From NCBI GenBank assembly GCA_903844635.1, contig CAIMUF010000021.1, positions 1-54,461 of the forward strand: a DNA stretch of 54,461 nucleotides. The letters run 5' to 3'. The notes beneath the pieces were generated by a model. That model was given only the letters and a program-made list of their open reading frames with translations, was not told the DNA's origin and did not search any database. Within the stretch, counting starts at the first letter, position 1. Each line of letters starts with the position of its first letter. Source of the DNA: an uncultured Sulfuricurvum sp. (GTDB lineage Bacteria > Campylobacterota > Campylobacteria > Campylobacterales > Sulfurimonadaceae). A program made the translations under genes and the position numbers. Of this stretch, positions 3,402 through 32,234 are shown in pieces.

Positions 3402-3733
3402 TAGGTACACAGGTGATAGCTTGAATTACAATTCAAGAGGAAAGTCCGGGCTGCTGTAGGACACGGTTCCATCTAACTGATGGCCATGGTAACATGAGGG
3501 ACAGTGCAACAGAGAGTAAACCGCCTTGTCAAAGAGGTGAGGGTGAAACGGCGGGGTAAGAGCCCACCAGTCTCATAGGTAACTATGAGAGCTATGTAAA
3601 CCCAACCGTGCAGCAAGAAACAGATGGTTAGCGTCCTACATTGCTATTGTTTCGCTAGAGGCTCAGAGTAATCTGGGCAGTAGATTAATTATCACTTTAT
3701 CCAGAACCCGGCTTATGTGTACCTAACTTTTTT
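3402..3733 (+). ncRNA. rnpB: RNase P RNA (bacterial type A)
   Basis: Catalytic RNA that cuts the 5' leader from pre-tRNAs. The conserved GAGGAAAGTCCGGGCT block (P4/CR-I) starts near 3439, internal conserved GGTAAGAGCCCACC-type and GTAAACCC elements follow, and CAGAACCCGGCTTAT closes the molecule near 3700-3715. Terminal helix P1 is visible directly: bases 3402-3411 pair perfectly with 3716-3725. P1 is followed at once by six T residues (3728-3733), so the end doubles as an intrinsic terminator. The length of about 325 nt fits a compact epsilon-type molecule. It is oriented against the downstream sdh genes. Confidence 0.95.
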
Positions 3734-15388: not shown

Positions 15389-16588
15389 TTAATTATCGAA
15401 ATTTAATAACTGTTTTGCCTGAATCATATCTTTATCGCCACGACCTGATATATTGACGATAATCAGCTTATCTTTGATGTTGTCCATTTTTTTCAAATAA
15501 GCAATCGCATGAGCTGTTTCAAAAGCAGGAATGATTCCCTCTGCACGACTAAGCCAGACAAAAGCATCCAATGCTTCATCGTCGGTAATGTTGTCATAGC
15601 TAACGGTTCTGTTGTCTTTATGAAAAGCGTGTTCGGGTCCAATCCCTGGATAGTCAAGTCCAGCTGAGATAGAATGTGCTTCAAGTATTTGACCATCTTC
15701 ATCTTGGAGAAGATAGCTCATCTGACCGTGCAATACTCCCGGACGACCTTTGAGAAGAGAGCAACCATGTTTATCCGTATCGACTCCATGTCCACCCGCT
15801 TCGATACCAATACAGCGCACCTCTTTGTCTTCCAAAAAGTGCTGAAACGTTCCGATGGCATTGCTTCCTCCACCGATACATGCAATAACATAATCGGGAA
15901 GACGATTTTCTTTTTCTAAAATTTGAGCACGTGCTTCACATCCTATGATGGCTTGAAAATCACGTACCATCATAGGGTAGGGGTGAGGACCTGCAACCGT
16001 GCCGATGATGTAAAATGTATCGCGTGCATGGGTTACCCAATGACGGATCGCATCATTCATAGCATCTTTAAGAGTTTTAGAACCACTCTCAACGGCATGA
16101 ACTTTTGCACCCAAAAGTTTCATCCGAAAGACATTGAGTTCTTGACGTTCAACATCTTTTGCTCCCATGAAGACTTCACATTCTAATCCTAAGAGTGCAG
16201 CGATGGTTGCTGTCGCAACACCATGCTGTCCCGCTCCAGTTTCAGCGATGACTTTTTTCTTGCCTAAACGCTTTGCCATAAGTCCCTGAGCAATAACATT
16301 ATTGATCTTATGTGCTCCGGTATGATTGAGATCTTCACGTTTTAGATAAATTTTAGCTCCCAATTCTTCAGAGAGATTTGCCGCATAATACAAGGGACTA
16401 GGGCGACCGACATAATCGGTAAGATAGCCATCTACCTCTTTCCAGAAGGTTTCATCAAAACGAATTTCATTGTATGTTTGTTCAAGCTCCAAAAGTGCGG
16501 GCATTAGCGTTTCAGGGACATAGCGTCCGCCAAAAATTCCAAAATGTCCATCAATAGGGTCAAAGGGGGAAGGTTTAGGTATGTACAT
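15389..16588 (-). CDS. trpB: Tryptophan synthase beta chain
   Basis: 399 residues. Condenses indole with serine using PLP. The PLP lysine motif H-T-G-A-H-K-I-N-N, the GGGSNAIG phosphate-binding loop and the start [13 protein letters not shown] are intact, typical of TrpB1. No trpA or other trp gene is nearby; instead it lies between apt and dedA. The ATG overlaps the apt stop by one base (TAATG), so it is translated together with apt. Confidence 0.96.
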
Positions 16589-17136
16589 TATTCTACTCCA
16601 ATTACAGTATAAACAGGGGTTAAAGTTTTAAGTTTAGATTGTCCATCAAGAAAATCAAGACCCAAAATAAAACAAGCTTCTATGCATTGGGCACCCACTT
16701 TATTGATAAGATTAGTAGCCGCATACGCTGTTCCACCCGTTGCGATCAAATCATCAATCAATAAAACTTTTGGATTCTCAACTGATGAGAAAGCATCAAT
16801 ATGAATTTCGACTTCATCGAAACCGTATTCTAACGAGTATTTTTCTGACACAGTAGTGTAGGGGAGTTTTCCTTTTTTACGAATCGGAATGAAGCCCACG
16901 CCTAGCATTTGTGCAAGTGCAGCACCAAATATAAATCCACGAGCATCAATACCCGCAACATGGGTTAATCCATAGCTGCTATATCGTTCATGAAGATGTT
17001 TCATAAGGAGTGAATAGGCTTCTTTATTTGACAAGAGGGTGGTAATATCTTTGAATACAATACCCGGTTTTGGAAAATCAGGAATGTCACGGATAGAATG
17101 GTTTAAAAAAGTTTTTTCTTCTAATGTAAGTATCAT
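16588..17136 (-). CDS. apt: Adenine phosphoribosyltransferase
   Basis: 182 residues from ATG 17136, preceded by AAAGGGGAA; the open frame runs on upstream to 17205 but that part is the translated repeat element. Salvages adenine with PRPP to AMP. The PRPP loop [13 protein letters not shown] and the [10 protein letters not shown] motif are clear. Follows the hairpin repeat at 17159-17226 and overlaps trpB by one base. Confidence 0.94.
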
Positions 17137-17158
17137 AAAATTCCCCTTTAAATTTTCT

Positions 17159-17226
17159 GCCTCAAAAGAGGCAAGCTTTAGTGCCTTAGCGGCGAGCGTA
17201 GCCAAAGGGATGAATTCCTTTGGCGT
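17159..17226 (-). repeat. Dispersed hairpin repeat, copy A
   Basis: Lies two bases after the stop of the coiled-coil gene (minus strand) and ahead of apt. On the plus strand: hairpin GCCTC-AAAA-GAGGC (17159-17172), a conserved core (17171-17203), then hairpin stem 17201-17208 with 17217-17224 (GCCAAAGG/CCTTTGGC). The core matches copy B at 30421-30453 in 30 of 33 bases. The stem differs from copy B by a compensated pair, so the hairpin is probably a selected RNA structure (terminator, processing site or REP-like element). Confidence 0.75.
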
Positions 17227-17559
17227 TTAAATTAATGCGTCAATCCGACCTTCCAATTCTCGTATTTTATTTTGAAGGCGATCGGTATCGATTCGGTGTT
17301 TTGAGTTACGCTGCTTAAGCATTTTGACTTCATTACGTAAATTATTAAGTTCTTCACTAAGAATATCTACATTTCCTAATGCTCGTTGAAGTTGAATTTG
17401 ATATTTTCGAATCAAAATCTCTGCTTCTTTGAGTGTCAGTTTCATCATTTCACTGGTGCGCTGTTCTTTGACGGTAATGCTTCGAAAATAAAACATTTTG
17501 ACTAAGAAAACAAGAGCTCCCAATGAAACTATTGTAAGAAGTGACCACTCTAAAAACAT
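17227..17559 (-). CDS. Small single-pass membrane protein with a coiled coil
   Basis: 110 residues. One N-terminal membrane helix (about 3-25), then a long charged helix with heptad-like spacing (about 35-108). No known motif; the layout recalls small scaffold or division-associated proteins but nothing specific supports that. Sits 3 bases after rpiB and before the repeat/apt, in the housekeeping operon. Function unknown. Confidence 0.65.
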   Translation of the reverse strand: MFLEWSLLTIVSLGALVFLVKMFYFRSITVKEQRTSEMMKLTLKEAEILIRKYQIQLQRALGNVDILSEELNNLRNEVKMLKQRNSKHRIDTDRLQNKIRELEGRIDALI

Positions 17560-29145: not shown

Positions 29146-30386
<1,241 letters not shown>

Positions 30387-30410
30387 TAATTTGATCCTTT
30401 TTATAATCTT

Positions 30411-30479
30411 CCCTGAAAGGGCAAGCTTTTGTGCCTTAGTGGCAAGCGTAGCCGATGGGGCTTTTGCTCCATTGGCGTC
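30411..30479 (-). repeat. Dispersed hairpin repeat, copy B
   Basis: Immediately after the aspS stop and before the short adenylate kinase gene. Same order as copy A: small hairpin CCCT-GAA-AGGG (30411-30421), conserved core (30421-30453, 30 of 33 bases as in copy A), and hairpin 30451-30458 with 30469-30476 (GCCGATGG/CCATTGGC, including one G-U pair). One stem position is A-T in copy A and T-A here, a compensatory change. Confidence 0.75.
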
Positions 30480-32234
30480 TTATTTAATGGTTTCACGAAG
30501 GCGGATATGAAGTTCACGAAGTTGAGTGAGCTCCACCGGACTTGGTGCTTGCGTCATAATACAAGATGCTTTTTGTGTTTTCGGGAACGCGATAACGTCA
30601 CGAATACTATCTTTTTTCGATAATAGCATCATGAAACGGTCAAATCCGATCGCAAAACCACCGTGTGGAGGTGCTCCGAATTTGAGAGCATCGAGAAGGA
30701 ATCCGAATTTTTCTTGTGCTTCTTCTTCTTCAATCCCCAACAATCTAAAGATTTGTTCTTGAAGGGCTTGTTTGTGAATACGAATCGATCCGCCACCAAG
30801 TTCTGTACCGTTTAGAACGATGTCATACGCGATGGATTCTATGTCTTCGAGATGCTCATGATTCAAATCACGTGGCATAGTAAAGGGGTGGTGAAGCGCT
30901 TTGACACGACCGTCTTCTATTTCGAACATTGGGAAATCAACAACCCATACGAATTCAAAACGGTCTTTGTCGATAAGATTCATTTTTTCATGTTCTGCAA
31001 TGAAGATACGGAAACGCCCCATATAGTCCCAAACCGTTTTCTTATCTCCGGCACCGAAGAATACAACGTCGCCAACTTGAAGCTCTGTGCGATCCACAAG
31101 AAGCTGTAAATCTTCAGCCGTAAAGAATTTTTCCAATGGTCCTTTGAGACCGTCTTCTTTCATTTGGAAATAACCAAGTCCTTTTGCTCCGAATTTACGG
31201 ACATAATCTTCAAAACTTTTCATTTCACGTTTTGAGAAGACCAAATCAGCACCTGGTACACGAAGCGCTTTGATACGATTCATCTTAGAATTTGCAGCAA
31301 TTGCAGTAAAAATTTCATTGTCACAACGTTCAAAAATATCAATAACATCAACCATTTTTAGGTCGTAGCGAAGATCCGGCTTATCTGATCCGTACCATTC
31401 CATTGCGTCCGAGTATTTGATACGGTTAAATGGGGTAACCACAGTATGTCCTGCACTTGCAAACATTCCGACAATTAATTCTTCTGCAACACGGATAACG
31501 TCTTCTTGATTACAAAATGACATCTCGACATCGATTTGAGTAAATTCCGGTTGACGATCAGCACGTAAATCTTCATCACGGAAACATTTTGCGATTTGGA
31601 AGTAACGGTCAAATCCGCCCACCATCAAAAGCTGTTTAAACAACTGCGGTGATTGTGGAAGAGCATAAAATTCACCTTCATGAACACGGCTAGGGACGAG
31701 ATAATCTCGGGCACCCTCAGGGGTTGATTTTGTCAAAATCGGAGTTTCGACTTCCAAAAATCCTAGACTGTCAAGAACGTTGCGTGCAGCAATAGCAGCT
31801 TTTGAGCGAAGTAAAAAGGTGTTGTACATCGCTGGGTTACGCAAATCTAAATAGCGGTATTTAAGACGTATCTCTTCACCGACATTGTTGTCACCAATCA
31901 TAAAAGGGACAGCTTCAGAACGGTTTTCGATAATCAACTCATCCACGATCACTTCGATAGCCCCGGTTTTGAGACGCGGGTTAACCAGTCCTTCTCCACG
32001 AGCGCGAATACGTCCATGTGCTATGAGGACAAATTCATCACGAACTTCACTTGCCAATTTGTGCGCATTTGCATTGTCAGCAGGGTCACAAACGAGTTGG
32101 ATCAAACCGCTTTTATCGCGTAAATCAATAAAAACGATACCACCGTGGTCGCGGTGACTGTTCGCCCAACCACATAAAACGACTTTTTCGCCAACGTTTG
32201 TTTCATTTAATTCAGTACAAAAATGACTTCTCAA
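30480..32234 (-). CDS. aspS: Aspartyl-tRNA synthetase
   Basis: 584 residues, class II. N-terminal OB-fold anticodon domain, motif 2 [18 protein letters not shown], bacterial GAD insertion domain (about 290-420), and motif 3 G-F-A-I-G-F-D-R-F. In Campylobacterota this enzyme is usually non-discriminating, charging both tRNA-Asp and tRNA-Asn, with GatCAB correcting the latter; that is family knowledge, not shown here. ATG 32234 has AAGGA upstream and a TATAAT at 32263-32268. Confidence 0.96.

Follow-up and report, generated by a model that had tools for sequence, protein, structure and literature searches.

The window analysed here, the whole stretch of 54,461 nucleotides from an uncultured Sulfuricurvum sp., contains two copies of a non-coding element of about 70 nt, and both are confirmed as members of a dispersed family in Campylobacterota, spread among free-living sulfur bacteria. 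The element is mobile DNA and not an old RNA gene, and the strand that folds is its own + strand, as in strand-specific single-strand transposition. Our best explanation, to which we give even chances, is a miniature non-coding mobile element that would move as a folded single DNA strand with the help of an HUH/Y1-like mover acting in trans. The dispersal, the presence/absence polymorphism, the covarying hairpins and the folding preference of the + strand are direct observations.

Two copies beside stop codons

Copy 1 extends from TCT to CGTT over positions 17156-17227 of the + strand (cmsearch 90.2 bits, E 4.9e-20), and copy 2 over 30407-30479 of the same strand (72.7 bits, E 8.6e-16). A sequence-only reading had placed them at 17159-17226 and 30411-30479; these locations are confirmed in the sequence, as is a common 33-nt core in which the copies differ at 3 positions. 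Within the window, a 32-nt pattern matches these two copies and nothing else, with 0 expected from 100 shuffles, and the core match of the two copies cannot be due to chance. Copy 1 lies between an apt-like phosphoribosyltransferase gene (16588-17136, minus strand) and a 110-aa ORF (17227-17559, minus strand) that matched no Pfam family, and copy 2 between adk (29814-30386, minus strand) and aspS (30480-32234, minus strand), both assigned with Pfam. As had been noticed earlier, both copies adjoin a stop codon in the same orientation, the stops of the minus-strand genes appearing as TTA on the + strand (17227-17229 and 30480-30482).

Two hairpins had been described in each copy, but there are three, a short core hairpin (GCC-loop-GGC inside GCT/AGC) being located between the outer ones. 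In copy 1, hairpin 1 (17158-17173, + strand; TGCCTC-AAAA-GAGGCA) is followed by the conserved core hairpin (17175-17197, +; GCTTTAGTGCC-TTAGC-GGCGAGC), which has compensated variants in relatives, then by the GTAG tag at the foot of hairpin 3 (17198-17201, +), by hairpin 3 (17202-17223, +; CCAAAGGGATGAATTCCTTTGG), which includes a conserved G.T wobble, and by the right end CGTTTA (17224-17229, +), which overlaps the TAA stop (17227-17229) of the adjoining minus-strand ORF. Copy 2 has a shortened hairpin 1 (30411-30421, +; CCCT-GAA-AGGG), a core hairpin matched by the covariance model (30425-30447, +), the GTAG tag (30448-30451, +), hairpin 3 (30452-30475, +; CCGATGGGGCTTTTGCTCCATTGG) and a right end CGTC (30476-30479, +) that abuts the aspS stop codon. 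The changes reported for the right-hand stem are exact, with pair 3 being A-T in one copy and G.T in the other, and pair 5 A-T and T-A. The region of copy 2 folds at -34.6 kcal/mol on the + strand vs -24.8 kcal/mol on the - strand.

No Rfam family matches the element at gathering score, the window's only match being the RNase P RNA of bacterial class A (RF00010) at 3402-3729 (+). Hairpin 3 is flagged as terminator-like on the + strand at both window sites, which would suit intrinsic terminators that have arrived at the same hairpin by convergence. However, no T run is found downstream of the hairpin (GTTTAAATTA, GTCTTATTTA), hairpin 3 points against the flanking genes at both sites, and convergence cannot yield the conserved linkers and core, making this account extremely improbable. 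As a full account, terminators are refuted by the conserved core and by the empty sites described below.

Structure and covariation of the element

Across copies, the element is made up, in order, of TCT, hairpin 1, AGCTTTAGT, GCC.WTAGC.GGC, NAGC, GTAG, hairpin 3 and CGTTYAAA; on the wobble-bearing strand, the core hairpin GCC-WTAGC-GGC is nested inside GCT/AGC. CT is found at the left end (TCT) in 108 of 136 copies, and in 63 of 126 the CGTT is followed by CA or CT; the 3' side of the element reads CGTT, rarely CGTC. The outer stems are highly variable across copies, with complementarity kept far above shuffles. In 50 copies that share one loop length, at least 10 stem sequences of hairpin 1 were counted. 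For hairpin 3, 102 copies gave 59 distinct 5' arms, nearly all of them complementary to their own 3' arm. In hairpin 3, 91% of cells pair; exchanging arms between copies at random lowers this to 60%, and sliding the arms to 52% or less. Double changes were counted in 120 cells vs 41 in shuffles (covariation score 0.464 vs 0.155; none of 500 shuffles as high), cell counts that overstate independent events because the copies share ancestry. The sequence-only reading had named just two copies without covariation as a refutation; its proposed core search and covariation check gave instead many copies and strong covariation.

The apparent invariance of the core results from its use as the search pattern: a search tolerating mismatches found the variants GTGGC..GCC, GTGAC..GTC, GTGTC..GAC and GTACC..GGT, every one of them compensated. 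The invariant GTAG of the copy alignment A1 likewise reflects the search pattern, which included it, but GTAG is retained with the mismatch-tolerant pattern and with the covariance model, at the foot of a palindromic hairpin.

Copies are mostly single, with a few head-to-tail doubles and no inverted REP pair. The doubles are 98-193 bp apart (L040 at 3342 and 3440, L075 at 343 and 536, L097 at 4574 and 4685), and in L040 near-identical flanks were duplicated together with the copies. At L046, L048 and L114, the loop of hairpin 3 itself contains an extra hairpin. A sister family in the same genome (L266:900-975, L268:975-1054, L261:1662-1727, L256:1329-1412 and 1483-1546, L223:1274-1344 and L267:969-1034) has the right module TTAGCGTAG-hairpin-CGTTTAAA in common with the element and differs in its left module, CTCTCTGCYGAAGAGA-ACTTAGCGTTAGCGTAG. 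With this swapped left module, the repeats look modular. At L060, L085, L119 and L128 of the genome contigs, the core and right module stand behind another left module, whose hairpin in L085 and L119 is GCCTGCACTACGTTAGGC or the compensated GTCTGCACTACGTTAGAC.

Family size and distribution

The genome of origin (2.67 Mb, Sulfuricurvum-like, assembly completeness 96.4%) gave 48 matches to a covariance model made from 34 diverse copies, 22 copies by pattern search and 30 with a shorter pattern. All but one of the 41 genomes of the genus contain copies, 3-48 each (0-48 when all 41 are counted). A scan of GTDB genomes gave at least 113 matching stretches, and among the 80 matches listed all 80 carried the label Campylobacterota or a former name of it (Sulfuricurvum, Sulfurimonas, Sulfurospirillum and relatives). 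At the level of the order, with at most 2 mismatches, matches were found in 47 of 299 genomes and 12 of 81 genera. No phage or plasmid record matched the element and just three IMG/VR contigs have one copy each, leading us to reject carriage by phages or plasmids. In open-licence papers, no account of the element was found for Sulfuricurvum or Sulfurimonas. Altogether, it is well supported that the family is real and REP-like in its working; it is not a demonstrated member of a RAYT system.

Filled and empty sites

At the site of copy 2, the aspS/adk spacer is at most 5 bp in 25 of 30 loci (about 3 bp in most Sulfuricurvum genomes). The junction is filled in the genome of origin, G331 and G307, and also in G137, in the opposite orientation, and G326 has a different hairpin there. 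A junction that can be filled, empty or reversed points to mobile DNA rather than to an old RNA gene. The site of copy 1 is filled in the genome of origin, G331 and G330, and empty in 23 of 30 loci, with just a remnant of the left hairpin in G317 and G321. When the element was excised in silico from 14 further loci of the genome of origin, these matched continuous empty sites in many relatives, and the closest relative (G331, 92-96% identical) lacks the element at 3 of the 14. At one orthologous site (L207 in the genome of origin, L346 in G331), the copies differ at 20 of 77 positions with flanks differing by about 4%, which means that these are different copies, resulting from a replacement or from two insertions. 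At another (L305 in G331, L200 in the genome of origin), G331 has a small hairpin, TCCAGCCGAAGCTGGA, in the element's place downstream of the gene.

Being short, non-coding and dispersed, with empty sites present, the element could also be seen as a MITE of a DDE transposase, with terminal inverted repeats and target-site duplication. This is very unlikely, considering that its ends, TCTGCC and CGTTYAAA, do not form an inverted repeat, that its structure consists of three separate hairpins, and that no target-site duplication is visible at the aligned loci, where spacers have diverged. Spacer turnover also blurs the insertion ends, making the exact cut sites uncertain.

Placement relative to genes and the strand that folds

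Copies are extragenic and close to gene 3' ends, in either orientation. Using mechanical ORFs, 56 of 136 copies are antisense to both neighbours, 34 are sense, 17 convergent and 9 divergent. In co-directional gene pairs, the element lies -15 to 25 bp from the upstream stop codon in 63 of 90 cases; in antisense copies, the right end runs into the stop (median 0.5 bp), and the reversed strand of CGTTYA itself contains TGA or TAA. The post-stop placement proposed earlier therefore holds for most copies, with an orientation relative to genes that is not fixed.

The sequence-only reading had attributed the kept pairing to selection on an RNA or a REP-like structure. The dispersed, structured and REP-like character is borne out by the many copies and very strong covariation; a role as RNA in the host transcript is not, since the asymmetry between wobbles and mismatches goes with the element's own strand and not with the transcribed one. 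In hairpin 3, G.T wobbles outnumber A.C mismatches 75:8, leaving out 66 cases of one conserved wobble. Antisense copies give 24:4 and sense copies 14:1, counts in which events are not independent since the copies are related; yet decay after insertion should yield both mismatches alike. If pairing were driven by transcription, G.U would be expected on the transcribed strand and thus A.C on the + strand of antisense copies, which is not what is observed. The G.T excess, whichever way the neighbouring genes run, shows that the element's own + strand folds, and not the host mRNA. In copies 1 and 2, this wobble-bearing strand is antisense to the flanking genes, and the mRNA carries its mismatched complement. 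The wobble-vs-mismatch count is a simple test of the folding strand that can be applied to dispersed palindromes from sequence only, and it distinguishes a function in mRNA from a mobile intermediate that is strand-specific.

As a cis-acting RNA, the hairpins would protect or process the upstream 3' end or tune the next gene, with selection in place keeping the pairing. The adjacency to stop codons in co-directional pairs fits this, as does the presence of another small hairpin at the same spot in some relatives. At sites shared with G331, moreover, copies have diverged by 2.6%, less than the mostly coding flanks (4.7%). However, this divergence is like that of the adjoining 20 bp (2.0%, p = 0.50), so that after insertion copies change no slower than the sequence alongside, and several of the differences break stem pairs. 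Orientation is free, with antisense copies being commoner, wobbles favour the + strand of the element even where the transcript is the other strand, and most relatives do without the element at a given site. A cis-acting RNA is accordingly unlikely, and a strict mRNA function as the main account is rejected on the strand asymmetry and the free orientation. The divergence data, from a small sample, suit a constraint acting while copies spread better than a strong one persisting after insertion.

Search for a mover

REP-like repeats are usually linked to RAYT transposases. The sequence-only reading had suggested looking for such a tyrosine transposase, and PF01797 (Y1/RAYT/IS200) was searched for in the genome of origin, in 299 genomes of the order and in 41 of the genus. 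No PF01797 gene was found in the genome of origin, at an assembly completeness of 96.4%, or in the single-contig relatives G159, G192 and G294, which each have copies (10-14). None of the 30 PF01797 loci from the genus has a copy beside it, and copy number does not depend on PF01797 presence (medians 11 and 12, p = 0.54). Some members of the genus, G331 among them, do have a Y1 protein. RAYT/IS200 is thus rejected as the present mover, being absent from the genome of origin and linked to the copies neither by locus nor by copy number. It is because the genome of origin and several closed relatives lack Y1/RAYT, with none beside a copy, that the element is not filed as a RAYT REP. A reverse transcriptase (PF00078, RVT_1) is rejected on the same grounds: it is absent from the genome of origin, and in the genus, where 9 of the 41 genomes encode it, its loci have no copies and its presence is unrelated to copy number. 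Among the genes between closely spaced copies of the genome of origin, no transposase was recognised by eye.

A related reading keeps the same mobile family but replaces the HUH/Y1 mover with an unknown protein or an RNA-level route that spreads the folded single strand. PF01797 is absent in copy-rich genomes and has no association with copies in the genus, which favours this possibility, as does the lack of replication-strand bias (45:44 copies in five genomes with clear GC skew). The latter also counts against our best explanation, since a lagging-strand mechanism could give such a bias. Against the alternative, RVT_1 is missing from the genome of origin and most of the genus and is not near copies, and GTAG with a hairpin is a known signature of the Y1 branch. 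We consider it possible but doubtful.

Under our best explanation, an HUH/Y1-like mover in trans, copies would be inserted, and still be gained and lost, mostly at the stop codon of the upstream gene and in either orientation. The movement as a single strand and the nuclease are suggested by analogy: the element would move in the form of one folded DNA strand, and a hairpin-binding HUH/Y1-like nuclease that recognises this strand in trans might read GTAG and hairpin 3, as TnpA-REP does on REPs. Stem sequence could then drift freely provided that the arms remain complementary, and any influence on mRNA would be incidental. The nuclease, not recognisably encoded in the genome of origin, might have been lost, be too divergent to detect or act from elsewhere. 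A REP-like family with clear empty sites in RAYT-less genomes makes other movers testable in culturable bacteria.

Comparison with known repeat systems

Di Nocera 2013 (PMC3733652) describes a REP superfamily of GTAG repeats whose stems vary and which lie near gene ends, and also reports GTAG REPs from epsilonproteobacteria, with both GTAG and CGTC repeats in Sulfurovum NBC37-1. GTAG-tagged REP-like repeats are thus already known, and our family may overlap with the Sulfurovum GTAG family. The element resembles GTAG REPs in having GTAG directly 5' of a stem-loop, variable complementary stems, G.T pairs and an intergenic position near gene 3' ends, but in our family the tagged hairpin is the rightmost of three, in a unit of about 70 nt that also has a conserved core and a CGTT tail. 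With CGTC-tagged REPs (PMC3733652), it shares palindromes close to gene ends and the want of a known dedicated transposase, whereas its tag is GTAG on the 5' side, with CGTT, rarely CGTC, on the 3' side. GTAG REPs mobilised by RAYT, unlike the element, have a RAYT gene in the genome, flanked by the repeat, and RAYT-mobilised REPs are single palindromes of 20-40 bp, often in inverted pairs (REPIN/BIME), instead of three hairpins.

Elements derived from IS200/IS605 and associated with palindromes are similar in that one defined strand folds. They duplicate no target, and at the aligned loci of the element, where spacers have diverged, no duplication is visible. The genome of origin has no IS200/IS605 transposase, and no replication-strand bias is seen. 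A bolder reading, possible but doubtful, is a three-hairpin single-strand family of Campylobacterota that would spread independently of Y1/RAYT or reverse transcriptase, with left modules exchangeable on a GTAG-hairpin-CGTT right module. The REPIN/RAYT system (TnpA-REP) of E. coli and Pseudomonas differs in its inverted REP pair and its adjoining or correlated transposase gene. The cues that TnpA-REP recognises are GTAG at the hairpin foot, irregularities in the stem and neighbouring CT/CA dinucleotides (PMC8266576). The element is like this system in its strand-specific, single-strand GTAG hairpin, in its tolerance of stem changes, in its non-autonomous spread and in the CT/CA dinucleotides that flank the hairpin (PMC8266576), and judged by this analogy it is a repeat that appears to work like a GTAG-tagged REP.
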